In this document: piece by piece, positions 717-62,300 of the stretch
How the letters are laid out: each line of letters opens with the position of its first letter
Position numbering within the stretch: position 1 is the stretch's first letter
Assembly: GCF_032854445.1 (NCBI RefSeq)
Contig: NC_088301.1
Coordinates: 26,334,402-26,398,401, forward strand
DNA length: 64,000 bases
Direction: 5' to 3'
Source of the DNA: Liolophura sinensis
Lineage: Eukaryota; Mollusca; Polyplacophora; Chitonida; Chitonidae
The notes under the pieces: model-generated
What the model was told of the DNA's origin: nothing
The model's database searches: none
The model's input: only the letters and a program-made list of their open reading frames with translations
Made by a program: the position numbers and the translations under genes

Positions 717-3700
717 CCTGGAGACAGTGAGGCAGGCACTGGTCAGTCATGGGTTCCAAGATATCGCCTTCTATGTCGTCAATTCCCGTCTCTGGCACTC
801 CCAAATGTTGGTTGAAGAGCTGGAGGTGAGAGTTGGCTTTCCAGTTTTCCAAGATACTCACTCTCGAAATATTTGGACTTCACTTGAGGGGAACAAAGAC
901 GACTTCTTCATATACGACAGGTAAGACAAAGCGGCTGTGTATTTGTGTTTCTGGCGCCGGAATCACAAGCTACATTTCTGACCAATGAGCCGTAAGCTTC
1001 AGGTGCTGGGTCCTATTTCCGGATGCATGTATCAATCAGGGGCCGAAGCCACATCTGAAATACCTTGTGCAATTTTATGCCTTTTATACCTCATCCCAGC
1101 CATTTCAAGACAAACGTGTCAAACTGTCAACTTCCAGTACCACAAACTAAGCATCGTGACAAGATTCTAAATTCTGACCGAAGTCAGAAATGGCTTTGTG
1201 GAATCGACTCCAGGTGCTATTTTATTAGCATATATCTACCTGGGGCAACTTTTATGTATCAACCGTGTTCTATTTTAAAACGTGTCTTCTGGGGAATACT
1301 TTTGTGTATCAACTGGGTCCTGTTCCAGGATGTATCAACCAAGGACTACTCCCATGAAACTTTGTAGATACTTACTTATCTAAATCTTTATATAAGATTA
1401 TGCCATCTACCCAGAAGGTCATCTTCTATACAACGTGTTGCTATGGCAGTACCGTTTGTATTGCACCCCTTTCACTTTAGCAGCGTTGTTTTCTGGAACC
1501 GATTTTACAAAGCCCTTGTAGCAGTACGAACATTGTGTCATCATTTCTGCATAATTACTATACTGCATAATGTGAAAAGTACTCCATGCATGGTATCTGA
1601 AATGAAACGTCAATAAAATGCGGAAGAGAAAAGCCACATCCCTTTCTGAATAGGCAACGCGAAATACATGTACATCTACCAGTGACGGCACTTGTGGCAA
1701 ATATGCTTCCATACACATAAATTTTCCAACAACCAGAATCAGTGTTTTGCTCCATCTACGCTTGTTTATATAATGGAAAACGAGCCTCTACCGAAGTGTT
1801 GAAGAAATGAAGTGAACTGAATTGAACAGCAAACCATATGCAGTGATCTAAGCTACAAAATAGCCAACACATTTGATAAATAGGGTATAGAAAGGAGGAC
1901 CAAAAACTACAGGTGTCATGGATACAATCATTATCCTGATGTTTTTGTTGGTCATTTTGTCCGTCTGTCGTTAAGTTTACGGAAAAGGTCATACAGGGAT
2001 TTGCATGATATTTCACCTACACACTGACCTTCATATTGATGGTCATACAGGGATTTGCATAATATTCCACGTACACACTGACCTTCGACTAAGGGGGGTT
2101 GTGATGCAATGAATTTTTCTAATGATCCTCGATCACTGACATGCAAAGTAAAATTGTTTCTGGAATGTACATTCAGTTCTGGCACAATTTTGTGCTCTTG
2201 GATATTCTCTTCTAGTTCACAATTATAATTCCTTTAAATTAGTTCATTTCGTTCATGAATTCTCACAATTTTGTAGATGTGGGAACCTAGCCTATTATCT
2301 GCCCTACCCGGATAGCTGGTTAGGCTACAGATTCTTCCAGGAGTACCTCTTGTCGGCTTACAACAACGACCCCTGCGGCTGTGAGAGGTCCCAGCACGGG
2401 GCTCCTGGCGAATCAGAGGAAGCTGAAAACGAAGGAGAGGGTGAAAACCCAACACAGGAGCCAAGCGTCACGGCTGACATGGAGGACAGAATGATGGGAG
2501 ACAGCCCAGTCACTTACAACCGCAAGGAGTTAGAGGAGGTACTGTGACTGAGACTGATTCTTAGAGTGTTCATATACCTGAAAGGTTTTTTAAATGTTAA
2601 ATGTTTTTTCACTCCGCGCTTGAATCGCGAAAAGGCGAGAGAGATTAATTTGAGCCTGTCTATCCGTCACGCATTCGTTTTCCTTCCAATTTTAATAAAT
2701 TTGGTGTGCAAATTCAATTTGTGTAATCTCTGATCGGAAAACCAGTCAGATCCATGCATAAGATACCAGAATGAAAACCAGCTCGGGCTAGCTTGATACA
2801 TACATATGTCCATCACGTTAGAGAGGGATATACATTCTGTGAATTAGCTTCTTTCCACGAATCTACAGCTAGGAAACCAAATCAATACAGCGTTTGTCAA
2901 TCTAGCCAGGAAAATCCTGCCACACCGGCAGGCTACCTAAAGCTGATATGTGAAGTGTTTTTCAACCCCATGCAAATTAATGTCAACATCTGGAATGAAA
3001 AAAAATCTTTAACATTTCCAATTTGCTTTTTGACTTCATATCTGTCCTTGAAGGTGATCAGACAACGTTGCCCTGATGTTGAAGTTCAACAGTTGAATGT
3101 GCACTCAACAATTAATTTGTTGTCTAAGTGATGCAAGAATGTAGTCTTGCAGCAGATTTTTCTGTGAAAAACAGCACACACATTCTATTAATTAAACATA
3201 AAGATTCCATTAGACTAACTCGATCATACGTTGAATAAGACAAAATATTGTGTTAAAATTAACAGATTAATTTTTTTAAGTGTGTATGGGCAGAGGTTTT
3301 TTTTTTCAGTAAGGCAAGCTGCGGCACAGCAGATCAAATTCACCCTTAAGATGTTCTAATTCACAAAATTCCAGATACGCCGTCAGAGAAAGATGGAGCG
3401 AATCTTGTACAATAAGACGGTCAGGAAGCACAAGTCCAGGAAGAAGAGCAAGAAACACCAGAAGCTGCAACGTAACAAACATAAACTGAAGAAGAAACAG
3501 CATCTAAAGGAGAAACATCATCAAAAACTAAAGACTAAAGAACATCATCATCATCATCACCATCACCATCACCATTCTAAACACCACACAAAACACCAAG
3601 AGGAGATGCCAGAAAGGGTGCATCATTCTTTAACATACTGAGAACAGTTTTCTAAAACTTACCTGTGTAAAGTCATTCTCAAATTAGGCCTTGAAACACA

Positions 3701-6700
3701 CTGATGTCCTGGACCCATCTCCACAACTGTTCCACCAACAACAACGGTTTTGCCAGATGTCATTAAAACTATCACATGAAAATGATTCATGTCCACACCT
3801 TCAAACAGTAGCACAACACTATGTGCCAACAGTACTGATATTAACAATACATTTACCTTGTGCAATTCCACTGAAGAGCCATTTAGTTCCAATGATAAAT
3901 CTCTCAATCACACTTCATCTATAACAGATCCTTCCAATATGACTAATACATTTGATCAAATGCCAGAGAATGGCACAAATGTATGATGATGACCATGTCA
4001 GACTATGACCGAAGAAAAAGGATGACAGTGACCCAAGGCTCAGGGAGCAATGTCTACAGTATCCTGATCTTGATCCAGTGATCTTAAAACATCAGACAGT
4101 ACTCAGTGACAGTGACCAACTGGTGTACACTGCTGACAGTGCAGTCAGGGAGCAATGTCTACAGTATCCTGATCTTGATCCAGTGATCTTAAAACATCAG
4201 ACAGCACTCAGTGACAGTGACCAACTGGTATACAGGGCTGACAGTGCAATCAGGGAGCAATGTCTACAGTATCCTGATCTTGATCCAGTGATCCTAAAAC
4301 ATCAGACAGCACCCAGTGACAGTGACCAACTGGTGTACAGGGCTGACGATGCAATCAGGGAGCAATGTCTACAGTATCCTGATCTTGATCCAATGATCTT
4401 ACTACATCAGACAGTACTCAGTGACAGTGACCAACTGGTGTACAGGGCTGACAATGCAATCAGGGAGCAATGTCTACAGTATCCTGATCTTGATCCAATG
4501 ATCTTACTACATCAGACAGCACTCAGTGACAGTGACCAACTGGTGTAAAGGACTGACAGTGCAATCAGGGAGCAGTGTCTACAGTATCCTGATCTTGATC
4601 CAGTGATCCTAAAACATCAGACAGTACTCAGTGACAGTGACCAACTGGTGTACACGGCTGACAATGCAATCAGGGAGCAATGTCTACAGTATCCTGATCT
4701 TGATCCAATGATCTTACTACATCAGACAGCACTCAGTGACAGTGACCAACTGGTGTACACTGCTGACAGTGCAGTCAGGGAGCAACGTCTACAGTATCCT
4801 GATCTTGACCCAGTGATCTTAAAACATCAGACAGCACTCAGTGACAGTGACCAACTGGTGACCAGGCCTGACAATGCAATCAGGGAGCAATGTCTACAGT
4901 ACCCTGATCTTGATCCAGTGATCTTAAAACATCAGACAGCACTCAGTGACAGTGACCAACTGGTGACCAGGCCTGACAATGCAATCAGGGAGCAATGTCT
5001 ACAGTATCCTGATCTTGATCCAGTGATCTTACTACATCAGACAGTACTCAGTGACAGTGACCAACAGGTGTAAAGGGCTGACAATACAATCAGGGAGCAA
5101 TGTCTACAGTATCCTGATCTTGATCCAGTGATCTTAAAACATCAGACAGTACCCAGTGACAGTGACCAACAGGTGTAAAGGGCTGACAATGCAATCAGGG
5201 AGCAATGTCTACAGTATCCTGATCTTGATCCAGTGATCTTAAAACATCAGACGGCACTCAGTGACAGTGACCAACTGGTGACCAGGCCTGACAGTGCAGT
5301 CAGGGAGCAATGTCTACAGTATCCTGACCTTGATCCAGTGATCTTACTACATCAGACAGTACTCAGTGACAGTGACCAACAGGTGTACAGGGCTGACAAT
5401 GCAATCAGGGAGCAATGTCTACAGTATCCTGATCTTGATCCAATGATCTTACTACATCAGACAGCACTCAGTGACAGTGACCAACTGGTGACCAGGCCTG
5501 ACAATGCAATCAGGGAGCAATGTCTACAGTATCCTGATCTTGATCCAGTGATCCTAAAACATCAGACAGTACCCAGTGACAGTGACCAACTGATGTACAG
5601 GGCTGACAATGCAATCAGGGAGCAATGTCTACAGTATCCTGATCTTGATCCAGTAATCCTAAAACATCAGACAGTACCCAGTGACAGTGACCAACTAGTG
5701 ACCAGGCCTGACAATGCAATCAGGGAGCAATGTCTACAGTATCCTGATCTTGATCCAGTGATCTTAAAACATTAGACAGCACTCAGTGACAGTGACCAAC
5801 TGGTATACAGGGCTGACAGTGCAATCAGGGAGCAATGTCTACAGTATCCTGATCTTGATCCAGCGATCCTAAAACATCAGACAGTACTCAGTGACAATGA
5901 CCAACAGGTGTACAGGGCTGACATTGCAATCAGGGAGCAATGTCTACAGTATCCTGATCTTGATCCAATGATCTTAAAACATCAGACAGTACTCAGTGAC
6001 AGTGACCAACTGGTGTAAAGGGCTGACAATGCAATCAGGGAGCAATGTCTACAGTATCCTGATCTTGATCCAGTGATCTTACTACATCAGACAGCACTCA
6101 GTGACAGTGACCAACTGGTGTACACTCCTGACAGTGCAGTCAGGGAGCAATGTCTACAGTATCCTGACCTTGATCCAATGATCTTACTACATCAGACAGC
6201 ACTCAGTGACAGTGACCAACTGGTGTACACTGCTGACAATGCAATCAGGGAGCAATGTCTACAGTATCCTGATCCTGATCCAGTGATCTTAAAACATCAG
6301 ACAGTACCCAGTGACAGTGACCAACTGGTGTACAGGGCTGACAATGCAATCAGGGAGCAATGTCTACAGTATCCTGATCTTGATCCAGTGATCCTAAAAC
6401 ATCAGACAGCACTCAGTGACAGTGACCAACTGGTGTACACTGCTGACAATGCAATCAGGGAGCAATGTCTACAGTATCCTGATCCTGATCCAGTGATCTT
6501 AAAACATCAGACAGTACCCAGTGACAGTGACCAACTGGTGTACAGGGCTGACAATGCAATCAGGGAGCAATGTCTACAGTATCCTGATCTTGATCCAGTG
6601 ATCCTAAAACATCAGACAGCACTCAGTGACAGTGACCAACTGGTGACCAGGCCTGACAATGCAATCAGGGAGCAATGTCTACAGTATCCTGATCTTGATC

Positions 6701-7247
6701 CAATGATCTTACTACATCAGACAGTACTCAGTGACAGTGACCAACAGGTGTACAGGGCTGACAATGCAATCAGGGAGCAATGTCTACAGTATCCTGATCT
6801 TGATCCAATGATCTTACTACATCAGACAGCACTCAGTGACAGTGACCAACTGGTATACAGGGCTGACAGTGCAATCAGGGAGCAATGTCTACAGTATCCT
6901 GATCTTGATCCAGTGATCCTAAAACATCAGACAGCACCCAGTGACAGTGACCAACTGGTGTACAGGGCTGACAATGCAATCAGGGAGCAATGTCTACAGT
7001 ATCCTGATCTTGATCCAGTGATCTTACTACATCAGACATTACTCAGTGACAGTGACCAACTGGTGTACACTGCTGACAGTGCAGTCAGGGAGCAACGTCT
7101 ACAGTATCCTGATCTTGACCCAGTGATCTTACTACATCAGACAGTACTCAGTGACAGTGACCAACGGGTGTACACTGCTGACACTGACAAATATCTGGTG
7201 ATAAACCATCCTGATGGTGACCAGTGGTAAACAGTATTATGAATTAG
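717..7247 (+). CDS. SELENOP: Selenoprotein P with a very long UGA/Sec-rich tail (5' exon outside window)
   Basis: Secreted selenium-transport protein; UGA is read as selenocysteine (Sec, U). Seen: exons 717-920, 2277-2538 and 3375-7247, bounded by AG acceptors and GT donors, with phases that join exactly (AG|A giving Arg; then phase 0). The first two match the SELENOP thioredoxin-like domain: FYVVN, SQMLVEEL, GNKDDFFIYDR, then CGNLAYYLPYP. Exon 3 begins with a Lys/Arg-rich stretch and a run of 11 His (about 3543-3575), as in the SELENOP His-rich region, then an Asn/Ser/Thr linker with many N-glycosylation sequons, then the Sec array. The frame has 162 TGA (hand count) and no TAA/TAG until TAG at 7245-7247, giving 1,445 residues within the window. 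The exon with the N-terminal UxxC motif must lie upstream of base 1. Domain identity is near certain. That every TGA is decoded is inference, supported by the SECIS elements. Confidence 0.93.
921..2276 (+). other. SELENOP intron with a small tandem duplication
   Basis: Intron between the two thioredoxin-domain exons (donor gtaaga at 921, acceptor tag at 2274-2276). It contains a direct duplication of about 53 bp around 1988-2087 (ggtcatacagggatttgcat occurs twice) and several degenerate repeats of gtatcaac(c/t) at 1020-1350. No coding sequence recognised. Confidence 0.6.
2539..3374 (+). other. SELENOP intron carrying a MITE
   Basis: Intron between the second thioredoxin-domain exon and the His/Sec exon (donor gtactg, acceptor ccag). 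The 3' part contains an inverted-repeat element (separate entry, 3105-3280). The rest shows no recognisable feature. Confidence 0.6.
3105..3280. mobile_element. MITE-like inverted-repeat element, copy 1
   Basis: Shares with the elements at 61811-62028 and (reverse) 53605-53812 the internal block attctattaatt(a/c)aacataaag and the terminus ttaaaattaacag. The left end is diverged. Short, noncoding and with inverted termini, so probably a non-autonomous DNA transposon. Confidence 0.6.
4020..7222 (+). repeat. SELENOP: In-frame 105-bp tandem repeat array encoding the Sec-rich domain of SELENOP
   Basis: About 30.5 copies of a 105-bp unit (units start at 4104 and every 105 bp to 7149, with a partial lead-in from 4020). 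In the SELENOP frame each unit is 35 codons with TGA at unit positions 2, 4, 11, 23 and 25, giving the pieces QUQUPTG, CUQC (or GUQC) and SUSUSSD. Row by row I counted 155 TGA from 4023 to 7220 and no TAA or TAG. Unit variants differ by a few bases; the block 6223-6432 is repeated as 6433-6642, a recent two-unit duplication. Other frames contain TAA or TAG, so only the TGA frame is preserved. Confidence 0.95.
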
Positions 7248-7300
7248 ATTCCCACCAAATATTCCACCAGATTTTAGAAGTGCATCAACCATCGAAGAGA

Positions 7301-7366
7301 AACCATTTGTATGACGATTCTCAGAGAAAACCGGGAGGTATCTGAGCATTAGAAGCTTAAAATGTT
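7301..7366 (+). promoter_or_regulatory. SELENOP: Possible second SECIS element (form 1-like), 3' UTR
   Basis: SELENOP mRNAs typically carry two SECIS elements. Here ATGA 7311-7314 and TGAG 7343-7346 could form the quartet, with AAAA at 7327-7330 twelve nt after ATGA. Helix II is short and bulged (GAT/ATC and CTC/GAG pairs). A lower helix AAC-ATTT with AAATGTT (7301-7308 with 7360-7366) leaves an asymmetric internal loop. It lies only about 60 bp after the stop codon. Weaker than the element at 7593. Confidence 0.5.
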
Positions 7367-7592
7367 GCCAATTCTCTTTGATAGTTTATCACTTTAAGAA
7401 CGAATACTTGTATATTTTCTGCACTCTACTCACAGTATAGTGTCTAAGATGTGTTACTATTTTCAATATGTTAGCATAAATACACATATTATCAAATGTT
7501 TCTTTTTACACTTTATTCACTTAAGACAGTAACTTTTTGCATAATCTTAAATGTGTCAGCGTTAAATTTATCATATGTTTCTAAAGCCAATG

Positions 7593-7689
7593 TTCCTTAT
7601 TTTTAAAACTCTTCATGAAAAGATGGCAGAAAATCATGGTTATGAACCTGCTGTTTTGGACCCCTTAATGAGTGATTAAAATCAAGGAA
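7593..7689 (+). promoter_or_regulatory. SELENOP: SECIS element, form 2, in the SELENOP 3' UTR
   Basis: A SECIS hairpin recruits SBP2 and the Sec elongation machinery to recode UGA. Seen: ATGA at 7615-7618 opposes GGA(C) at 7658-7661, giving the non-Watson-Crick GA quartet. Above it, helix II pairs 7620-7629 with 7648-7657 (10 pairs, some G-U). The AAAA bulge is at 7630-7633, 11 nt after the quartet strand. A mini-helix TCAT/ATGA (7634-7637 with 7642-7645) caps it, which defines form 2. Below, helix I pairs TTCCTT 7593-7598 with AAGGAA 7684-7689 and TTTTAA 7601-7606 with TTAAAA 7676-7681. All expected parts are present at normal spacing. Confidence 0.9.
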
Positions 7690-7752
7690 TCTGGGTTTTT
7701 GAAATCATATGTATCTTTCATCCAGTGATATTTCTTTTATATGTATAATAAT

Positions 7753-7773
7753 AATAAACAATTTGTCAATAAA
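7753..7773 (+). terminator. SELENOP: SELENOP poly(A) signals
   Basis: Two AATAAA hexamers at 7753-7758 and 7768-7773, followed by a GT-rich stretch (ggttgttttt near 7783), about 510-530 bp after the stop codon and downstream of both SECIS candidates. Confidence 0.7.
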
Positions 7774-7876: not shown

Positions 7877-8110
7877 CAATGATTCCTTATCTGAGGATTC
7901 ATTATTGGACGGTTCATTATCTGAGGATTCATTATTGGACGGTTCATTATCTGAGGATTCATTATTGGATGATTCATTATCTGAGGATTCATTATTGGAC
8001 AGTTCATTATCTGAAGATTCATTATTGGACAGTTCATTATCTCAGGATTCATTATTGGACGGTTCATTATCTGATGATCCATTATCCAATTGTTCATTAT
8101 CCGATTCCCT
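7877..8110. repeat. 30-bp minisatellite downstream of SELENOP
   Basis: Seven to eight copies of a 30-bp unit around ctgaggattcattattgga, degenerating at the 3' end. Both strands are open by chance (SLSEDSLLDG on +, NRPIMNPQIM on -). It lies after the SELENOP poly(A) signals and is read as noncoding. Confidence 0.85.
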
Positions 8111-17780: not shown

Positions 17781-19800
17781 TTGATATCTTTTAATCCTTG
17801 GAAATGAAGAAATATTTAAGTTGTTGGTAAAAAAATGCTGTAAAACAGTTTAAGTACATAACAAGTAAAACTGTACAAGCATGGGTACTCTTGTTTTGAC
17901 AATATGAAATCATACTTATTTATTTCATTAGTGTTTTGAGCTGTACTCAAGATTGTGATATCATAGGTAAGTAATGAATTGGAGAACATGACAATTGGAG
18001 TAGTGTTAAAAAAAAAATCACTATTGAATCATCATTAAACCTCTCCTATCCAAGTTGTATCAGTTCTGTGAATGGAAAATTCATAAAATAAAATAATCAT
18101 TAAAAATGATGTCAGAAATAAAAAAAAGTATATAAAATTTACAACTGATGATGTTATAGCGACTGTTTGAGCATACATGCTGGACATACTTTATTTGTCT
18201 ATCGCTATAATGTAAGTGTTTGAGTGACAAATTGACTTCATGATCACTATTCATGTTTATTTTTCCTGTTGATCAATCATTAATATACATTTATCAGAAG
18301 CTAGTAGAGACAGTTATGGTTTTGTCTGGAAATCCATGTTCACAACTTGATGTCTCGGATTGAAATATTGCACTGCTAAATATGGGCTGACTGCAACATA
18401 ATGAGTCTGCTTTACCTGTTGAAATCATGGCAGAAAAATGTCAAAAGAAGGCAAAAACTTCTGCTCATTTGTCAACATGATCACAGTTTAACCATTAAAC
18501 CATATCTTCAATGGTATGATTATTAAGATATTTTTTGAAAAAATAATAAAAATAATTACAGCTAAAATTAAAATAATAACTGTTTTTTAGAACTGTTGGT
18601 GGAATATGTTGGACTTAAGCCATGCTAAAAAAATGGTCTTTGTATGGGGATGACCCAACCCTATTGGAAATATTAAGAGCAGATAAAGATTTTAAAAGGA
18701 ATTAACATGATGAGAAGAAAGAAATCCCATCAAAAGCCCCAGTGCAGTAACAACTCTTTTTGGGTGATCAGTCATAGGCATTAGATGTAATTCTCTATCT
18801 GTAGATAAGTTTTAACCTGACATTTCAATTTCGTTATTAGTATCCATGGTTATTTGTATACATTAATACACATTTGTCAGAAGTCAGCACTGACAGTTGT
18901 GGGTTTTGTCTGACAATCAAGGTTCACAGCTTGACTGCTTGAACTCCCCGATTAAAATAATGAATACACTGAATAAATATACTAACTGTGACATTTGTTA
19001 GTTTCCTCTGTTTTACCTTATATGGTGAATTTGGGTTTTAAAAGGTTAGGCAAGGTGTTAGTCAAAACTGTGTAGCCAACTGGTACATGTTCTGACTGCT
19101 TATTGTCCTTGATCATATCCAATTTACAGACTTGTCAATAAATCCAGATGGCACTGGGTCTGAACAAAGGATTACCTGCCCCACACCCCCAAACTCTCTC
19201 CTATCACCCCCTTTCCCCCACTCCACCCCATGTCTTCCTTTGTGTCCCTAATCAAAGGTACCTAGATACTAGCACCACCATGTGGTCAATGATATACAGC
19301 TAAGTTTACCTGATAGGTGAATTAGACCTCACACTGATTCCAGGTAAGTAGCTTGATCTGTGCTGAGGGGACAACAACTCAGTAACTGTATTGTCTGGTT
19401 AAAGGACAGTTTTTAAGGACAGTAGACAAGGTCAGATTTGTCTGAACTGGACATGATGTTTCTGTTTGGGCTTGTTAGTATCTCTGTTCTTGTAGACTGT
19501 ATATAACCCGGGTCAGTGACAGTCTCAAACCATTCCATTTTGTCCTTTCACCTGAACACCAGTGTAAGAGTGCCTGAACACCTGCTCTTAGAAAATTCTA
19601 AGTTTCTGCCAAAAGGAGAAAGACTGCCACATTACCTGTCAAGATTGAACATCTGCTCTAAGAAATTGCAAGTGTACTGCAAAAAGAGAAGAAAAAAACC
19701 TACCTCTTTGTCTCTTGAGGCATAATATTGATAAGTAACCATGGATATCAGACATCGTATGATTTTACGAAGAAGCATGTTGAAAAGGGTGCGTTTTTGT
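17781..19800. other. Upstream region or 5' intron of CDC20
   Basis: A+T-rich noncoding DNA. A TATA-like element (19497-19506) and a pyrimidine-rich acceptor ending ccctcag at 19801-19807 suggest either a nearby start site or a spliced 5' UTR. Nothing else recognised. Confidence 0.4.
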
Positions 19801-19869
19801 CCCTCAGGTAGACTGAGCAAGCGAGACTTACTGACGCACAATCTTGCTGCAAACAACGACCCTCTCGTC

Positions 19870-22800
19870 ATGGCACAGTTCAACCTGGAGAATGAGATCA
19901 GCAATATCCTGAGAATGGACGGAGCTTTGACGCGAGGCCCCGCCATGAGGTGGCAGAGGAAACAGAGCGAGACGGAACCTCGCCCTTCACAATCCATGGA
20001 TAACCTCAACGTCAGCCAGGGCACGAAAACCCCGAGGAAGCCCCTCAGCAAGTCCAGCCCTAATACCCCAGAACACGGATTAGGCAGCAAGACGCCTGGA
20101 TCTCAGAGTAAGTATAGGAAGAAGTAAATTGATGAAATATTATGAATCATGATAATGAAGAAGTACATGTAAAGGCATATCTATGAAAATTTTGAAATCC
20201 ATGAAAGTTTCTGGCCCTTGCACCTGGATAAAGATGAAGATTCTTGCATGATGTCTTAATATTATGGAACCCATGCATTACAATTTAATCTATGAATCTA
20301 AAACAGTATTGATTCTCGAAAATGAAAAGTAAGGAATTTTGGACATTAATTCCTCAGATAGAGATTATTTGTAATATTTTCATTTGGATGAAACTTACAG
20401 GCAAGAGAAAAACACCAGGTGCAAAACTGCCGAAAACCCCAAAGACGCCAAGCGGTGGTGACAGATTTATTCCGAACCGAGCCACAACACAGTTCGACCT
20501 GGGCCACTTTAAATTGATGAAACGGAACAGCCAGGAAAATACCGAAGTGTTGAGTCCTGCCAAACAGGAGTACCAGAGAGTCATGGAGGAAAACCTCAAT
20601 GGAGATCTCTTGAGTAACAAAATCATCTCTTACAAAGCCAAGGCACCACAAGCCCCTGAAGGTACAATTGGTTAGAAGCAGTTGACTATTGATAGGCTTT
20701 TTTGTAATAAGTTAAATTAATCACTGGTAGTTTATTTAGTACTTCACCAAAAATTAAGACCTCAGAAATGCCAAATATTAAGCGAAAGGGGCACCAAGTT
20801 TGTTAATGCAATTTTATCCTTTATTGTCCATAATGCGGTCGCTAGTTGAAATTGTGTGAATTTCTCAGTTTAGACATTGAACTTAGCCTTAACTGTTGAG
20901 ATAATGAGTTTAAATCCAGCTCCAGCCTTATATCAAGAGGATAGCTGGAATGGTTTCCTAGAACCCCGTTCCCATAAACCTGCTTACCATCATACATGTA
21001 TATGAGTGGACTATTCTTGAGCATAACATAAGAACATTGAAAGTCAAAAATAAATAAATTAGAAACTCATTCTCTAATGAATTTTATTTGGTAATCTGTT
21101 TCAGGTTACCACTCTGAGCTGAAGGTGTTATACAGCACCTCGAAGTGTAAGAGCAGTTCCAAAAAGAACCGTCAGGTGCCTCAGGTGCCAGAGAGGATCC
21201 TTGATGCACCAGATATTCTTGACGATTATTGTAAGTACTATTGCTTTAGTTTACGATTTGCGTAACCTGAAACGTTGTTGCAAAGGGAGAAAACTATGTA
21301 TCGTTCATTTAGTCACACTCTGAAATGGCATTACTTCCAGAGTAAAAGAAGTGTTTTTCATTGGTCTTCAGGGAGTAGTTCATCAGATGACTGTTGTGTA
21401 GAATTGCTGTTTTACTTTTTTTGTCTAATATAGAGTAAATGACCTATAATTTCATGAAACTTTTCACTACAGTAACCATTCATATAGCATGGAGACAATT
21501 CCTTGGTGACAATTTTCCCTAAAATTATAGCTGATGGTTGAAGAATTCCAGACTATGGCATTAAAACACCAAACAAACAGATAAAGAAATAAACCCTCGT
21601 TTGTTTTCAGATCTCAACCTGCTGGACTGGTCTGTTAACAACCACTTGGCGGTGGCCCTTGGTAGCAGCGTCTATCTGTGGAATGCTGGATCAGGGGAGA
21701 TAAGCCAGCTGTTACAGATGGACAATCCTGAAGACTATGTGGGAGCAGTGTCCTGGATTAAGGAAGGAAACTACCTGGCTGTGGGCACAAGCTGTGGGGA
21801 AGTTCAGGTGAGGTTAATAAGTTATTTTATGGTGCAGTCATCACAGATAAGCCCATAAATCAGAAATAATTTGAAAAAAAAGTTATTTTAAAAAAGGTTA
21901 TATTGTAGCTTGTTTTGATTTTGAGAAATGTATGATGAAAGTTAAAAAAGTAGTAAGCCATTGTTATAGTGGGACACAATTATTTAATTGGAAAGTTTAA
22001 ACTTTCTGATATCTGATTGTCCCTTTATGGGGAAGCTATATATAGGAACACAAGATGACTTTAAAACAAAAGCATTCCACTGTACTTTTAAGATGGAAAT
22101 TTGCATGAGTATCATATGTGTTCCTGCAGACAGATTACAAAAAAAAAAATCTCTTAGTTTATACATTATATTCAAGTATCATTGTATGGTAGTCCATTGA
22201 AAACGGACTAAAACGGGTCAAGTTACTTATTTTTAAAGATATTCTTGATAGAAAAAACGGGAATTTTTCATTGTTTCATATTCATTGCTATTGTAAATAG
22301 AGATATACAACTTGTTCTTAACCAAGTTTTTTTGCTTCTTTTCTTGCAGTTGTGGGATGTGGGACAACAGAAACGAATCAGAAATATGACTAGTCACGCG
22401 GCGCGGGTGGGTGCCCTTTCTTGGAACTCTTACATCCTCAGTTCTGGCTCACGGAGTGGCTTCATCCATCACCACGATGTTAGGGTGCCTGATCATCATG
22501 TAGCCACATTAGGCAGCCATACTCAGGAGGTCTGCGGGCTCAAGTGGTCACCTGACGGCAAATACCTGGCCAGCGGAGGCAATGATAACATCCTGAACAT
22601 CTGGTCATCTAGAGATCGTGCTCCACTCACCGATGTTCGACCCTTGTACAGCTTCAGCAGGCATCAAGCTGCCGTCAAGGTAAGGGAGACTACTGTTCTT
22701 GCTTTTTCCTTAGGTTTATTCCTGGGTTGATTTTCATGTTGAATTGAAAGCAACATGTTTTTTTTTTTTTTTTTTTTTACCAGACTTTACAGATTCATAT

Positions 22801-28244: not shown

Positions 28245-29400
28245 CTGGCGTAGGGCGTAGATAATGGGGAAGTTACTGGAAACTTACTTGTAGACATCAA
28301 GAAGGCAGTTGATACTGTTTATCATGATATATTACTTAAAAAACTGAAAATATACAAATTTCACTCAACTACTTTTACTTTCTTCCAGTCCTACCTATCC
28401 AACAGAGAAGGTTGTTGTTGGAGGAGAAATATCTCATGCATATCTCCCACAAGGCTCTATATTGGGACCTTTACTTTTTATACCATATATAAATGATCTA
28501 CCATTATTTATAAAAAAAACAGTGGCAATTCTACTGACAACTTTACTGATGACACAACTATATACAGCTCCTCAGGCAATATGTCTGACATTGAGTGCAA
28601 TCTTAAGCCTTAATTGCACTAAAGACTGGTGCGACAAAAACCTCATCTTCATTAATACCCAAAAATCTAATTACATGATATTGGGCTCCAGGCAACGGCT
28701 GCAGTTAATCAAACACGTTCATTTCTCTGTTATGCTTGATGGAAACAAACTCAAACGGGTCACTAATGCTAAACTGCTTGGTATTTATATTGATGAACAT
28801 CTTTCCTGGAACACACAAATCAAAAATGTGCGTAAAAAGGTTTCTAAATTGTTTGGGATTCTACAAAGGAAGAGAGCTCTTCTAACACGTCACTGTAGGG
28901 ATATTTTCTATAAGTGTTATGTTCTTCTTCACTTTGATTATTGCTATTCTGTATGGGGAAACTGTTCAGCTTAACATAGAGAAAGCATAGTCAATTTACA
29001 AGAGCTGCTTGTTCAGTTCTACAAGAAAGCATGTGAAACAACTTTATTTTCAAGACTAAAATGGATGCATTTTAATAAAGGTTTAAAGTACAAAATTCTT
29101 TGTATCATTTATTAAACATTATATAATCTCTGTCCAAACTGTATTAAACAACTTTTCCCTCCAAACAAACAGTAGTACAATATTGTTCTGAGATCGGCAC
29201 ACCATAATATCTATCTAGCAAGGACAAATTCTATGACAGAAAGTTTGGCACATACAGGCATCAAACTATGAAACTGCCTCCCAAACCACATAAAAGAAAC
29301 CCCTTCCCTATCAAGCTTTCAATCACATTACTTCAAATTACTGTTATCTGCAAACAACAACAGAATGTACATGTATGCATGTAAGCTTCCATTGTATTAA
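28245..29400 (+). mobile_element. Decayed LINE (non-LTR retrotransposon) reverse-transcriptase fragment
   Basis: 5'-truncated remnant of a LINE ORF2. In order: LLVDIKKAVDTVYHDILLKK (RT core), QSYLSNRE, then an open stretch 28462-28974 with GPLLFIPYINDLPLFI, DWCDKN-IFINTQKSNYMIL, KLLGIYIDEHLSW and FDYCYSVWGNCS (RT thumb region), then the C-terminal region typical of CR1/Jockey-like elements (SFSRLKWMH, LARTNSMTESLA, NCLPNHIKETPSLSSF). The catalytic FADD-type motif is not readable in the main frame (the local sequence gives TLLMTQLY), and frameshifts and stops interrupt the rest. Clade assignment is tentative. Confidence 0.85.
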
Positions 29401-50329: not shown

Positions 50330-53300
50330 ATGATCATATTGTGCTTGTTTTTAACGTGTGCTCTTACTCCCGGTCTGCCCGCTCCAGTGGTCCAAAATTC
50401 AACTTACGTGACGCCGGAGTATCTCCAGCGGAAAACAGGTAGGTTAATTAGGGCCTAATTAAGTGTTACTTACAGATAGCATCATACTGGATAGACCGCG
50501 GGGAGCCAAGTATCATCTGACTATGTTGTGAATATTGCAGTTTTTAACAGCTCCAACTGTTTTTACAAAAAAAAAGTGAACTTATGAAATTATGCAGTCG
50601 ATACTGCATCACTACACACTTTTTTGTCTGTTACGTATAACATGGCAGTAGGGTTAGGGAAATGAGGAAGATTCTGACTCATTTTCTCTTTCTTACCATT
50701 TGCCACAATCTGTCAAAATTTTAGTCTAAGTGAAGCATAAGTGTAAATAGATCGTGCTCTTGAAATTTGACCCCAATTATCATAGAAGAGCCGCTCCTTA
50801 TGTTTCTTAGCATTTTGACAGTCATTTATCCAAAGCAGACGCCAGGTAAAAGTACTTTTCTGATGGTGGCGCTCCTTTCACTTTTTTAAATTATCATTTA
50901 GATATCCGGTAAACTATGTTCCAGTGACTCTTTCACTTAAAATCCCATTATATTGTCAAGTAAGAAAATCCTTGTATTCAGGCCAAACTTTGTTGTACGG
51001 TTGTGGCAATGTGCTGTGATTGTCTTCACGTTTACGATCAATTAGGCTTAAACATTATTTCAGATGCCCCCAAATATCAGGTAATCTTTGAGTCCATTCA
51101 TTTATCAATCGGTTAGCCACATTATATATTACATTCAAATGCTTGGCGATTCAAAATCAGTCACTCTCACTTTCAACGTTCGAAGGGATTAGTGGAAATA
51201 GGCGGTCGACGGGTGCCGTTTGCGTAACCGGACGTTCATTGAAGACCACTTTTCTTCCTTTAACATTGAAGATAAATTATCACGATGGAAGTTATGGTGT
51301 GCAAGTTAATGCGTCACACGTTGGAAAGTTTCTTAATATTTTGCCTGCAAAAGTGACTCGTTCCCATCGTACAGGTGAAAAATTCATCAGTATGGCGTCA
51401 GTCAGTCAATCAGCCAGCCAACCAACTTACCAACTAGATAATCAATCAACGTCAACCATTTTTTACTGCAGAACGTCTCTTGAGCACGCTGCATCATTAT
51501 GAGATGGTGGTGCCCACAATGGTCAACCCTAAGGGAGAATTCATCAGTTATCGTTTGCACCAACCACAAGACGGCGAATCTGGGATACGTAAGAAGCGTC
51601 GGGCCACTTCCGGTTACCATGTCAACGATGTCACAAACCATCTACCTCAGCAGCCTGTTAACGCTGTTCACGCCGACGAGTCGGACGTACGCATATATTA
51701 CAGGCTTTCGGCATACGGACGGGAGTTTCACTTTAACTTGACGTTGAACAGCTTATTGGTATCAGAGGACTTTATTGTGGAACACTGGAGTAAGGCAGGT
51801 GTGGAGCGTCACCACCAACGCGTCCCGGCGTGCCATTATGTTGGTCATAGTCAGAGCCCAACGGCTTCCAGGGCCGCCATTAGCAACTGTAATGGACTGG
51901 TGAGTACCTTATCACTGCTGTCTTTATTTACATTCTTGTTCCTCCTGCCTCTATCTGTCAACAGGTTCAAACGCTGCCATGTTGTATAATGATCTACACG
52001 GCGAGGTATGCAACAAGGCTAATATCTGAGGGTAATGTTCAGTTATATGAACATAAGTGTCTTCCGCCTGTACATCATCTTGAAGTTCAAGAGCTGCATG
52101 GGTTTACCTCGGTTGTCTGTAGCTCAGGTTATCTTCAGTACCACGGAACGCCAAAAAGTATAAAAACCCAGTCAGCTTCGTCTAGGTAATTTCCCGTCGA
52201 TTCAACAAACTGCTTGTTTATATGTAAAACAATTATGCCGTTGGTTTTTAAAAAGCTCCATGCACGGTGCATGGAAAGAAGGTACAAACGCATTACGCAT
52301 TAATTACCGCATTTTTTGGCACCACGAGCAAGTAGGCCGATTATATATGCTTGTATAAATGTGTGAGAATTGGGGCAGCAAAGTGGAGATAAGCGTGCAT
52401 ATGTCGATATGCGCATGTCTCCATCGCGGCTATCATCTGACTTGGAGCAGTATACTGTGTTGAAATCTTAAAGACCAGGTTCAGTATAGGCATGCCAGTA
52501 AAAGTACATTAGGGATTGTTATTCAAAAGTAAGAATTTCCTGAAAGTAGAGAGGTACAACAGCAATGGCCATTCTCATTAATGCTACAATTCTTGTGAAC
52601 AGTTAGACTAAGTAATTAAACCAAAAGACTAACGTAAACACGTTAAGTGGACGTGACAATGCAATATTGATGTGACACCCGCTAACCAAGGAAGAACAGA
52701 TCATTTCCAAAATCACACAACACTCGCCAACCAAGAAAGGACAGGCCTTGCACAAATTCGCAGAACACCCACTAACCAAGACAGGATAGGCCATGGACAA
52801 ATTCGCAGAACAACCGCCAAACCAAGAAAGGACAGGTCATGTCCAAAATGACATAACATTCACTAACCAAGAAAGGACACGCCATGTCCAAATCACACAA
52901 CACCCAGCAACCAAGAAAGGGCAGGCCATGTCCAAACTCACACAACACCCAGCAACCAAGAAAGGACAGGTCATGTCCAAACTCACACAACACCCAGCAA
53001 CCAAGAAAGGACAGGTCATGTCCAAAATCACACAACACCCAGCAACCAAGAAAGGGCGGACCATGCTCAAAATCGCACTGCACCTAGCAACCAAGATAGG
53101 ACAGGTCATGTCCAAAATCACACAACACCAAGCAACCAAGAAAGGGCAGGTCATCTCCAAAATCACACTACACCCAGCAACCAAGAAAGCACAGGTCAAG
53201 TCTTTAATTGTATCATCCTCCAAAACACAGCAACACTGTGTATTTCACAAAAGGGGATCCACTTAAACAAAGGGAATTTATTTTCAATCAGCTTGGTACG

Positions 53301-56300
53301 ATAGTCAGGGCAGAAATCTAAATTTCACATCTCGTATTTTGTGGTTAAACTTTTGCTCAATTACAAACACAGGTCTATTTCAGCCTATAGCTTTAAGTGG
53401 AAGTTGACCATCGCAGACTGAGTTTTCTAGAGGCCTCAGTTCTGCGTGTTGGAATCAAAGTTTATCTTACTTGGCTGTGGTATGATGTCAGGAAGTTTGA
53501 CAGATAACTGATGAGGTGCGGTTCTTGTATCCAGGCCTCTGGCGGGTTTCATACACGTAACACATACCACTTGTGATCCCTATTTCTATACTCAATAACA
53601 TAACCTGTTAAACTTAACAGAAAGTCTGTTATTTGTGTCTTATATTTATTATTAAAATATGCGTCATATTCAACATAGCATCTAGTTAGTCTAATGTAGC
53701 CTTAATGTTGAATTAATAGTGTATGTGAGCTACATTTAACAGAATAATCTGCCGAAATAACAGAATACATTCTAGCATTATTCAGACAACAGACTTTCTG
53801 TTAAGTTTATTTTTTGAGACTAGCTTCCCGGTCAAATTAATGTATCTAGGCATGTACTGTTTTGGCGGCCTTATTGATGAGACTTGTTTAAACCACTATT
53901 ATAAGAGGTTTAACGTTTTTGCTGTCCAAGCCCCAATAACACAAGCTATCTTTTTTATTCGTAGCCTACCAAATCATATAAAAATTTTAAACATGCTATA
54001 GAACAAAAATAAATTTGAGACAACAGAAACAACAGAGTTTCCATTTCATTGGGTAAGCTGTCTGTGTGACACGGAGCTGACCAATCAAATGCCGGATCGT
54101 GCGATTCAAATGTCAAATCAAAGAGCGTGTGACATGATTTTCACTGCTCTTCCCTAGACGGACAGACAAGATGGTCATGTGACATGGTAGAGTCACTAGG
54201 GCAGTAGACAATTACCTCAATATGGCATAAAATATAAACCAGTATGCCTAAATAAATTACAAGTGTCGTCAAGATATTACTTACAGTGGTTCGGGACCTA
54301 AGCAACATATTACTCCAGACGTTAAATTTTGTCGAGTCAAAAATAGCGTGGAATTGGCCTTTTTTGAAGTTTTTTGTCCTGTCTTTTTATACATGGATTG
54401 TCACGGTTTCTGACAATAGCATCTGAGAACAATGCAAGCCTCGTGACAACTCAACCTGTCTATATGTTATCTCCATCGTACCCAGCTTTGTTCTAAATTG
54501 TATACCACACGAAATATGCCTTATCAGTTTCCCAGCCATCAGGCCGGTTTTCCTGCCAGCTAAGTTCAGACCGTCTGTATAAGTGCAAGAATGCTATAAA
54601 CACTTCTGTTTGGGAAAACCTGGACCAAGAGAATCGATACCTTCTAAAATAAGGACATGCCGGATAAATATTACAGGGTTATGGTATAATAATATCAGTC
54701 TAATATATACATTCGTCTTATGACGCTCTGAATTTCTGTCTGGGGATTGCCTGCCGTTATAGACATCAGCCATATAGCTCAGAATTGTTTATATGGGGTT
54801 CTATCCTGGCATTTGGATCCCGTAGAGCTCAGTTATCTCTATGGAAATAAGCTATTTCATTGAAAATTGCTGTGAAGCTTGGGGAAGAAATTTAGCCAAG
54901 AACAGCAATAAAGCAATCTTGCAATGTGGAGTCTAAAACTAGGGTGATTTTAGAGTGAAGCTTCTGTTTGCTCATGTATATTTATTTATTTATTTACTTA
55001 ACATGGTATAGACACGACGCCGATAAGTTTTATGGTTTAAGGAAACCACACTGGAGTCCAGTAGAAACCACTGCCCCTAACAACGTACCTGACAAATCGC
55101 CTGACTTAAAACCGCTTCCAAACCTCAATGGTCGCTGATAAGATTCAGCAGGAAAGATGTTTCTGTGGGTTGAGCTACCTTTGGCCCTAGTTTCTGTTGG
55201 TGTCAGTGTAGCAGAGGAGATCACAGTTTATTCTATGGGGATTTCATTCTTACCTGAAATTATACTGAAGTGAAAAGTGAAGGATCCTGCTTTGCCTTGC
55301 ATTTGCCTTTTTCATTGCCTTGCATTTGCCTTTTTGTTTGCCTTGCATTTGACAACGAACATTGCAATTGCAAACCTTCGCGTGATGCTACAAGCGACAT
55401 TTGGTGATAGAACAATCTTGGATAAGACAGAAAATACACTTTCCTGTACAATCTGTCAACCAAAATTGATGTCCAGGGTTAATAATAGCAAGGACAATTT
55501 CCAAAACAATATTCAACACAAACTACTTAGAACTAAGAAAGGATATTAAAGTAAGAAATCAGTACAGATTCATGCCAAAAAAGCAGTCATGCACGTAAAC
55601 GGCTGCACTTGAACTTCAGATGGGAATTGACAGTTTTGATGGAACGATATCTAGTTTGTCGAACATAAATGCCTACCCTAGCGCTATGATGCGATGGAGA
55701 AGTAACGTCACAAGACACGAAATTTTATCAACAAAGTTTGTCGCAATATTTAATCATAGTGTTAGTCAGCATCGTTAGATACCGTAATAAGTTCCAGGCG
55801 ATCTACAACATCTACTTGGGCGTCATAAATGCACTTTCCCAACCGGACGTTCAAAGGCAGCCAAGTGGTTATTGTGTTAGTGTATTGGTAGTGCAGTGTT
55901 TGGTATATAAGTACTAGACTAGCAGACCGGATACCTGTACGCTTCTCCTGCTCTCACCATCTGGAAACTCTTACTCTACAACAGATGGCTTATTAACAAG
56001 ATATGGCTTTGAAAAGGCCACGGAAACGTAAACGAAATGAAGTGTTAGCGCGTGCGAACGTGGGCCCAAGGGCAGCTATCCCTCCTTATTATAACACACA
56101 GGGGTGTCTGTCATGAACAGACTACTTCATATCGCTTGACCCACTCCTGTCGGCGATGCCAGACACCCTGACCGTGAGAATTCACTGGTGGGAGGGGAAG
56201 GGGGGTGATAAGATAATAAAATATGGGTCGTGGTGATAGACACTCCGGTTCAGAGCAAGGAAGGATTGTTTGCATTGTTGCATCAGTTCATAGTTTAGCC

Positions 56301-59300: not shown

Positions 59301-62300
59301 AGATAGTGTTGTCATATACTAGTAATAGTCAAGTTGTCTACCTTCAGTCTTCAGTCTTGCTGCAGCAACCACTTGTTACTTTTGGTGTGTAAGAAAACAT
59401 AACCATCCGCCACTGGATTAGCAATTAAGTTTTGAAACCTTTGCCAAAGCAAAATGGGGAATGATAGATCTGTATGCAGTTTCCGATAATAGCGGAGTGT
59501 GATAAATTTCCATCTGGTTATATAGAGCCCACCTCATCAGCCATTAACCGCGTTCATTAGGTGAATGTGGAGACGTAATGATGCTGCAAAGTTCACACTG
59601 TGGGCCCCATAAACATGTATAAAGATAAGCTGTAGGCATGAAGGCGTGGCACACTGTCTGGGTCATTGTGCCAAGGCCTGTCTGCATCCCAGAATCCAGC
59701 GTTAACTACCTGCAGGTGCTGCTCGTCAGCAAAAGTACACTTATGCACATTTCACATGGTTCGGGGTTGTGTGGATGGGGTTTTTTTGTGGGTCATAATC
59801 ATCTTTTTACTCCGTCCACAGACAAGAAGAGCGGTAATCTGGAGAACAGTAACGATAAGTGGTCCCTGAATAAACCTTCTCAGTTTCTGAATCATTACAT
59901 CAAGTGGAATGGCCTCAAGGGTTACGACTTAGAACAAAACTCGTGGAAGTTCAAGCGACGGTCTGATGAGTTCAGCTCCGGTGTCTCCTCCTCCCCGAGG
60001 GTCGACGGAGGGGATTCTGCTCCCGGGGGTCAGCCGGTGCGCTCTCAGCGCCGAGCTCGATCCGTCAGCATGGAAAGACACGTGGAGACGCTCGTCGTCG
60101 TAGACAAGATGATGGTCGGTTACCATGGGCAACAGGAGATAGAGCCCTACGTGCTTACCATTATGAATATTGTAAGTCGGCTTCTTCAAAGGTATATTTA
60201 AGACACAACAGGTGGGGGGACTCGGCCTAGAAAAGCTCAGTAAGCTTTATATTACATAACTCGTTGTGGATGGTGGCAAAATTCCTATACCTCACCAGCT
60301 GAACTATACCTCTCTTAAAAAAACGGTAAGAATACCAAAACTCGCAAATAACATAGAATCACTTTCTATAACCTACTGAGAATGCCATAGCCCACTTACT
60401 GAGCCGAGCGATTTGTTTGACTCATTTGCTTTGGGACGTTTATATACATGGCAGCGGAATATATATACACAGGTTATCATTTATGCTTTTTTTATGAGAG
60501 CTGCATAAAGTCACACACTCGCCCATCCATAAGAAAGACCACTTTTAACAATTCCAAAAACAAAAAATAGAAAAAAATTCACAACGTTACAGGTATCACA
60601 AATACTATTTATCCTGTGCTAAGTATAGGATTATCGGATAATTTAAGTCAGATTTCCTTGATTTGCGCTTAATGGTGTGATTAAGTATAAGAAAACAAGA
60701 TTGTGAATTCTCGAAAGAGAAAACAATTATGAATGTGAAGTCTTTCTGTAAGTTTTTATGGTATATCTATCCCACAAATAAATACCTGTCGTGATCAGAA
60801 GAACAGAGCACGTCAGTTGAGCACGTATCATTGTTGATTACATCCTCATAGGCCTGAAATAACTTCACTCCAATTTTCTCATTTTTTTTTACGATGAGTA
60901 TAATTCTCTCGTAAATAAATCTGGAGGGAGTTTTCAGAATTTCTGACGCTGTGCTTTATGTCTAAACTTGCCAAATCCTGGGTTAGGGGCTGTATAAGAA
61001 TCGTGTTGACTGTAGCCGTCACATTAGATATATAGAAGTTATAAAATCAAAGCGCAACTTGGATACATATGTTTTAAATTACATGTAGTATTTAACGTAC
61101 AAACCAGCATGTTGAACAATTTGAATACTCATTAAAGTTAAGCGCCTGTGGGATATTTCTCACATCTTTGAAAACTTAATTCTGTGTATGGTAGCTGGTG
61201 TTGAATATCTGTTTGGAAATTGCTTTTGCAATTCCAAACTGCTGGCTTGGAACATTGTATGGTTGGCGATTGACACATGTATATTTGTTACGACACCGAG
61301 ATTTATGTGAATGGTTGCAATTAATATATCTCTCATATGTATTTGATGTGGCGAAGAGCTTACAACGCTCGCCTCTAAAGCTTTGAAATGATTACTCTTT
61401 AATCTCATTTTACCACCTTTAACAAAACGGCCCAATAATTTTGCATTCTTTTATTCTTTCTCATAGTGAGTCAATCTATTCAGTGTACATGCTTTTGACT
61501 AGGTTGTACTTATACATTGCAACAGAACAAAGCGATTTCTTTTCACTGCGATTTGGATCTTTGTGTAGCCTGTCAGTCTCCCATTCCTAACATCGGTACT
61601 TTCTTCGCACTCAGCGTAATGGAGTGTATGTCAAGTACTGGTCGGCGCAGTGTTTCAGTGAGGCAGCACTGCATGTATATCACCGTGACCTTACGCAAAA
61701 AGACACCGTCGTGATATGATGGAAGTGTAATGTTTAAAGCTGCACTAAAACCCAAAACAAAACCTAAAATAAATAGATTTACTTAACCTTTTACAGACTC
61801 ACAAAAAATCAAATCTGTTAATTTTAACTGAAAGCCTGTTGTCTTGGTGATGCTAGAATGTATTCTGTTATTGCAGCATATTGTTCTGTTAAATATGACA
61901 CGCATATTCTATTAATTCAACATAAAGACTAACAAGATATTATGCTGAATATGACAGATTATTGTGTTATATTAACATAATGCATTCCAGCATCATTTAT
62001 ACTTTCTATTAAAATTAACAGATAAATTTTTTGAGCGTAATCTTGGAAAAGAGTTATGAAGCCAACTGTTCTTTGAGTATCGCTATGCTTTTGTGGTTCA
62101 TCAGAGAGTACGTTTAAACCATGTGATCTAGTAATATCCTTCATGGAAAATACCCTGCTATTTTACCGTAGTCAGAGCTCTTGGTCACACTTTATTGGGA
62201 GAAGTCCCCTTTTGACTCAGGGGATCGTTTTTAAACCCACGGTCCCCTAGGGTCAGAAAGTCAAGCTTAGGCCTCTATCCTAGACATTTCCACTTGGCCC

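Follow-up and report, generated by a model that had tools for sequence, protein, structure and literature searches.

A SELENOP gene of the chiton Liolophura sinensis with 163 in-frame UGA codons, most of them in a 30-unit tandem array

Results

Structure and identity of the gene

The window, by which we mean the whole stretch of 64,000 nucleotides analysed, carries exons 2 to 4 of a SELENOP gene, and exon 1 adjoins it upstream (Table 1). The source, Liolophura sinensis, is a chiton (Polyplacophora, Chitonidae); the species of the genome described in PMC11068029 was renamed from L. japonica to L. sinensis in a published correction. The four coding exons comprise 197, 204, 262 and 3,873 bases, all three introns are of the gt-ag type, and the exon at 3375–7247 is the last. 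The complete gene encodes 1,511 residues with 163 Sec codons and a UxxC motif.

Table 1. Features of the SELENOP locus; positions are those of the window unless a contig is named
Feature	Position	Strand	Description
Exon 1	C7:26334170-26334366	+	Upstream of the window; ATG, hydrophobic N-terminus, UxxC with UGA1, gtaagg donor, phase fits exon 2
Exon 2	717..920	+	SelP_N thioredoxin-like, PF04592 match; acceptor cacatacag/CCTGGA, donor CGACAG/gtaaga
Exon 3	2277..2538	+	SelP_N end and acidic linker, PF04592 match; donor GAGGAG/gtactg; join as in the public protein
Exon 4	3375..7247	+	Lys/His-rich stretch, UGA linker, 105-bp array, tail and stop; 162 in-frame UGA
Lys-rich segment and His run	3375..3638	+	No UGA; precedes the gene's second UGA; the public protein ends here
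Linker	3639..4040	+	9 UGA; seven of the protein's nine N-glycosylation sequons
Tandem array	4041..7190	+	30 repeats, each 105 bp (35 codons) long; 151 UGA
TAG stop	7245..7247	+	Sole TAA/TAG of the frame in exon 4
SECIS-like hairpin 1	7311..7354	+	ATGA, helix, unpaired GAAA, small extra helix on top, AGAA; from fold and descriptor scan
SECIS-like hairpin 2	7607..7674, core 7615-7661	+	ATGAA, 10-bp helix, unpaired AAAA, GGAC; from weak Rfam match, fold and descriptor scan

The original prediction had placed one more Sec, that of an N-terminal UxxC motif, outside the window. A search for exon 1 with the pattern TGA-N6-TGY in open stretches of the 20 kb upstream of the window gave nine matches, among them one lying 64 bases before the window start (...VVALLQASUNLCLHQARG...), which supplied the expected codon in frame at residue 57 (ALLQAS-U-NLC). 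Only 35 intron bases separate this exon from the first base of the window. With exon 1 included, the SelP_N domain (PF04592) was matched at residues 23–196 with 153 bits (cut-off 23.2) and an E-value of 1.1e-44, compared with 1.5e-23 without it, in agreement with the assignment to SELENOP that had been made from the letters of the window. By eye, the N-terminus is hydrophobic (MTGRGAVLTACASLLLCLVSA).

In two initial protein searches, with 124 and 35 candidates, the L. sinensis model was the single match and no relative from another species was returned. When the N-terminus was used as query, 7 of 84 candidates matched, one of them again the L. sinensis model, and in the alignment the chiton sequence was 35–43% identical to the six other SELENOP N-termini, five of which are from vertebrates. 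UGA1 sits inside the conserved stretch VTVVALLQAS, at the place expected for UxxC. At the Sec site itself, one of the six aligned proteins has C followed by xxC, and in the other five the residue is missing or the region broken; the placing of UGA1 is therefore backed by the residues around it rather than by an aligned U. A PDB sequence search with the N-terminus gave no match.

A second SELENOP gene was considered and rejected, as the three genome matches to the N-terminal part (four candidates scored) were exons 1–3 of the gene described here. With query P0001, the other two of the three genome matches were weak and had TAA or TAG inside. By these sequence searches, the gene is the only SELENOP copy found in the L. 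sinensis genome.

The public protein model, 'selenoprotein Pb-like [Liolophura sinensis]', has 214 residues and was 100% identical to our query over 88% of the query. In it, part of exon 2 is spliced to exon 3 and on to the first part of exon 4 in the way that had been proposed from the upstream exons and their splice phases, which bears out the reading frame. The model begins at a Met inside exon 2 and breaks off at the UGA at 3639, so that it includes not one of the 163 Sec codons.

In-frame UGA codons of the last exon

Translation of 3375–7247 with TGA read as U gave 162 U in 1,290 codons before the single stop codon, TAG at 7245, exactly the numbers first counted by hand. The recount likewise returned the seven linker UGAs at 3639, 3702, 3777, 3783, 3984, 3987 and 3990, followed by four in 4023–4071 and 151 from 4107 to 7218 (positions compared for the first 15 and last 8 UGAs of the exon). 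The total for the gene is 163 and not 162 because exon 1, with the UGA of the UxxC motif, adjoins outside the window. Each of units 1–29 of the array has five UGAs and unit 30 has six, and two more lie in the tail after the array. Across the whole frame of 1,511 codons no TAA or TAG precedes the final TAG, and the remaining two frames of exon 4 contain 11 and 34. The base following UGA is C or T in 160 of the 163 cases.

As the array is one sequence copied many times, its 151 UGAs are not independent, and the chance tests were therefore performed on the linker, one unit and the tail (187 codons). No TAA or TAG occurs in this sequence, where shuffles average 5.07 (P(0) = 0.0044). It has 16 TGA; the shuffles average 6.88, and none of 5,000 reached 16. 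The linker by itself gave weaker values (P(0) 0.024, P(TGA) 0.045), and for the stretch before the linker P(0) for TAA/TAG was 0.08.

Variation among the units of the array

Variants were analysed in 29 units, unit 30 being left out because its end departs from the others. Units 1–29 differ by 34 distinct variants at 32 columns, none of which falls in a TGA codon, although 4.9 would be expected to (hypergeometric test, P 0.0026 by column and 0.009 by codon). When the TGA mask is moved circularly through all 105 positions, only 2 placements, one of them the true one, miss every variable column. All five TGA codons are thus invariant across these units, and unit 30 keeps the five too; besides TGA, ten of the 35 codons of a unit are invariant. 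The share of synonymous variants in the SELENOP frame was 8 of 34, compared with 22% expected. No variant creates a new TAA or TAG against 1.8 expected, a result that is weak when taken alone. Since the TGA codons are untouched and the synonymous share is as expected by chance, selection, where visible, acts on the UGA codons rather than on the peptide between them. Only the TGA codons show constraint at the protein level, and the case for translation of the array therefore rests on the UGAs together with the open frame.

The mean pairwise identity is 93% over 29 units, and a single pair among the 30 units (22 and 24) is identical. The array contains a 247-base exact match at a shift of two units, and among the shifts of 1 to 24 units that were tested, 22 gave the highest overall identity (95.5%). 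This pattern of similarity among the unit sequences fits repeated unequal exchange or conversion. Searching the genome with the 105-bp unit gave 30 matches, every one of them within the SELENOP array, and a dispersed satellite was accordingly rejected as the source of the repeat.

SECIS-like hairpins and Sec machinery

Both SECIS-like hairpins lie at most 430 bases 3' of the stop, on the same strand as the gene, and in both the ATGA, the apical AA and the opposite GA are placed as in SECIS elements, whose AAR loop and AUGA:GA stem are described in the available part of PMC8704476. The fold of hairpin 1 gave a z-score of −2.09 for 7275–7395 and 0.29, no better than shuffles, for 7300–7370; the corresponding values for hairpin 2 were −2.46 for 7590–7690 and −0.74 for 7607–7674 alone. 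Both hairpins thus outdo most shuffles when folded with broad flanking sequence, but not when the flanks are short or absent. Rfam SECIS_1 matched hairpin 2 weakly (20.6 bits, E 0.28; cut-off 35) and did not match hairpin 1, and nothing in the whole window reached an Rfam cut-off. When both strands of the 64 kb were scanned with a SECIS descriptor, nine matches came out, two of which were these hairpins, a background that serves as a rough guide only because the descriptor was written after both candidates had been seen. AATAAA signals are present further 3', at 7753 and 7768. Around the UGA at 3639, none of three folds was clearly better than shuffles. The spliced mRNA has a stem-loop at UGA1, but its z-scores of −1.65 (70 nt) and −0.42 (100 nt) are not significant.

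A tRNA-Sec model produced 32 matches in the genome, five of them over the cut-off. Two distinct tRNA-Sec genes with the anticodon TCA (L012 and L013) were called by both the model search and ARAGORN; a third match over the cut-off (L014) was not called by ARAGORN, and the fourth and fifth were tRNA-Ser. For SepSecS, six exon matches over the cut-off lay together on contig C6, two of the six with TAG inside. Eight selD-type exon matches were found on contig C7 in two neighbouring groups of opposite orientation; scored exon by exon, none of the eight reached the model's full-length cut-off, and three had a stop inside. The SECIS-like hairpins, these matches to parts of the Sec machinery and the retention of the UGAs would all fit decoding of the UGAs as Sec.

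Alternative readings of the array

If UGA 3639 were mainly a real stop, the gene would make a selenium-poor protein with one Sec that ends after the His-rich stretch, and the array would drift as an effective 3' UTR. Early SELENOP UGAs can indeed end translation, as in the short rat forms mentioned in the accessible text of PMC8230778, and the array is without constraint on amino acids other than Sec; yet the 34 variants leave the TGA codons untouched, and the 1,290 codons hold no TAA or TAG before their end, with the P(0) of 0.0044 given above for linker, unit and tail. The public model terminates exactly at this UGA, but it also lacks exon 1 and UGA1, so that its end point says little about biology. 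The frame downstream of 3639 is, moreover, the one set by the SELENOP exons. We regard a main stop at 3639 as unlikely.

Far less probable still, and rejected here, is that the +1 frame of the array is the coding one, giving a conventional repeat protein with about REQCLQYPDLDPVILKHQTALSDSDQLVYRADNAI in each unit, and that the frame-0 UGAs are a by-product. Within the array this frame has no TGA and only five TAA/TAG in about 30 units, but these five break it, as do others further up in the exon, it is not the SELENOP exon frame, and its synonymous variants (9 of 34 against 25% expected) are no more than chance would give. One open piece of this frame, 6019–7227, matched five Pfam families, of which SidM_N exceeded its cut-off of 27 with 32.2 bits (E 8.7e-08). 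No single stretch passes alone in any of the five, however, and the scores look like sums over repeats. A different doubt concerns the repeat number, which could be an assembly artefact or vary so widely between alleles that 163 is unrepresentative. Tandem arrays are known to change copy number, and the identity of units 22 and 24 and the 247-base exact match could be read in this sense; the units are nevertheless distinct, with their mean identity of 93% and one identical pair in 30, and the assembly was built from PacBio HiFi reads (mean 8,347 bp, 14X, according to the part of PMC11068029 available), which are longer than the 3.9-kb exon. We hold this explanation to be improbable. We infer, from the sequence evidence above, that the frame is translated to its end with its UGAs decoded as Sec.

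Discussion

Comparison with known SELENOP proteins

The molluscan maximum of 132 UGAs named in the original prediction agrees with the papers citing it, as far as their accessible text goes: 132 in one bivalve species (PMC8230778), 132 UGA in bivalves (PMC10235951) and, at the top of the list in PMC8744743, 133 Sec in the SELENOP of the bivalve Elliptio complanata. The title of Baclaocos et al. 2019 itself contains 'Up to 132 UGAs in Molluscs', and the available parts of PMC10875847, PMC12693785, PMC8310308 and PMC12822975 give no higher UGA number. Among the literature matches listed, which covered titles and the starts of abstracts with most subscription journals and all of bioRxiv lying outside, none claimed a higher UGA count, and none of the titles matched by selenoprotein with chiton or Polyplacophora was of a paper on a chiton selenoprotein. 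Like the chiton protein, that of E. complanata is, going by the accessible excerpt, a mollusc SELENOP with a very long Sec-rich C-terminus; compared by Sec count alone, the chiton has 163 UGAs, the bulk of them in its 30 nearly identical 35-codon modules, against 133 Sec.

The oyster SELENOP, with 46 Sec in the portion of PMC8230778 available, is a further point of comparison. It too is a mollusc SELENOP with many UGAs but, by that figure, has 28% as many Sec as the chiton protein. In the work of Baclaocos et al. 2019, the oyster protein (46 UGA) is reportedly made full length from a gene with two SECIS elements, with a reported decoding of about 5% for UGA1 and close to 100% for the distal UGAs. 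Expression data reportedly exist for the oyster gene, whereas the chiton gene is described here from its sequence.

Vertebrate SELENOP proteins have 10 Sec in human and up to 37 in fish (available text of PMC12822975), and the human gene has two SECIS elements (available text of PMC5133445). They share with the chiton protein the SelP_N domain, the UxxC motif, a His-rich region and a Sec-rich C-terminus, and their two SECIS elements compare with two SECIS-like hairpins in the chiton, but their Sec number is 4 to 16 times smaller. Vertebrate SELENOP is not known to contain a tandem Sec module of the chiton kind. The chiton SELENOP stands at the extreme of an already known family.

Proposed mode of expression and evolution

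Taken together, we consider it very probable that L. sinensis has a SELENOP gene with 163 UGAs, 30 modules and two SECIS-like hairpins, whose UGAs would be decoded as Sec and whose product would serve as a selenium carrier or store. By analogy with other SELENOP proteins, a putative signal peptide would direct secretion, the N-terminal UxxC would be redox active and the C-terminal chain would carry selenium. SBP2 and eEFSec, together with Sec-tRNA, would be brought in by the SECIS elements. The first UGAs may act as a slow, selenium-dependent gate, and ribosomes past this gate would read the array processively, yielding a high-capacity selenium carrier or store. The computed share of ribosomes passing 162 UGAs is 20% at 99% efficiency each, 44% at 99.5% and 85% at 99.9%; a full-length product therefore needs very efficient decoding, as 99% per UGA leaves only 20%. 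The full-length protein, signal peptide included, would have a computed mass of about 166 kDa, of which about 12.9 kDa is selenium.

On the evolutionary side, the copy number may have been set by unequal exchange between units, and the UGAs may have been kept by selection as the residues between them drifted. We lean, by a modest degree, towards the stronger reading that this protein has the most Sec of any known, 163 per chain at an efficiency of at least about 99% per UGA, and that its array would store selenium under a selection that counts hardly anything but UGAs, with copy number changing by unequal exchange, the spacers drifting and the UGAs fixed.

Significance

Within the literature searched, the in-frame UGA maximum moves from 132 or 133 to 163, in a chiton and 30 above the bivalve's 133 Sec, and the original prediction that the count exceeds the known maximum holds to that extent. 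The locus is also a case of a public protein model holding none of 163 Sec codons. Its 30 near-identical five-UGA modules form a natural test piece for processive recoding, in which one mRNA could report how efficiently each UGA is decoded, how far this depends on selenium and where termination sets a limit. If decoding as in the oyster applies, the yield of chiton SELENOP would depend steeply on the efficiency at late UGAs, and a single chain, if translated to its end, could carry 163 selenium atoms.

Repeats and coding-like fragments in the window

Directly 3' of the SELENOP 3' UTR we observed a tandem repeat with a 30-bp unit (TTCATTATCTGAGGATTCATTATTGGACGG; 6.8 copies, 92% matches), which is contained in a 112-codon open frame of the HYLRIHYWTV type. 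A second tandem repeat has three of its six frames open. As listed in the table, an exon of a CDC20/Fizzy-type WD40 gene and a LINE reverse transcriptase-like fragment were matched below the cut-offs of their models. Judged by eye, the open frame that precedes the WD40 exon may be the N-terminal part of the CDC20/Fizzy-type gene; the Pfam search returned no match for this frame or for the one with an ADAMTS-like end.

Additional features of the window
Feature	Position	Strand	Evidence
30-bp tandem repeat	7881-8106		
Open frame, possible N-terminal part of the CDC20/Fizzy-type gene	19735-20127		by eye
CDC20/Fizzy-type WD40 gene, exon	22212-22730	+	PF24807, E 2.9e-39, under its full-length cut-off
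LINE reverse transcriptase-like fragment	28348-28974	+	PF00078, E 0.013, under cut-off
Tandem repeat, 3/6 frames open	52790-53304		
Open frame, end resembling ADAMTS-type metalloprotease start	59629-60201	+	by eye only

tRNA-Sec and selD-type loci

Two tRNA-Sec genes that differ by one base were found on separate contigs, at C6:47908678 (L012) and C5:1088976 (L013). A third, weaker tRNA-Sec Rfam match (L014) lies 980 bases from L012; ARAGORN did not call it, and it is perhaps a decayed copy. Matched exon by exon, the selD-type loci L031-L038 (C7:52014353-52037884) form two putative genes side by side in opposite orientation.
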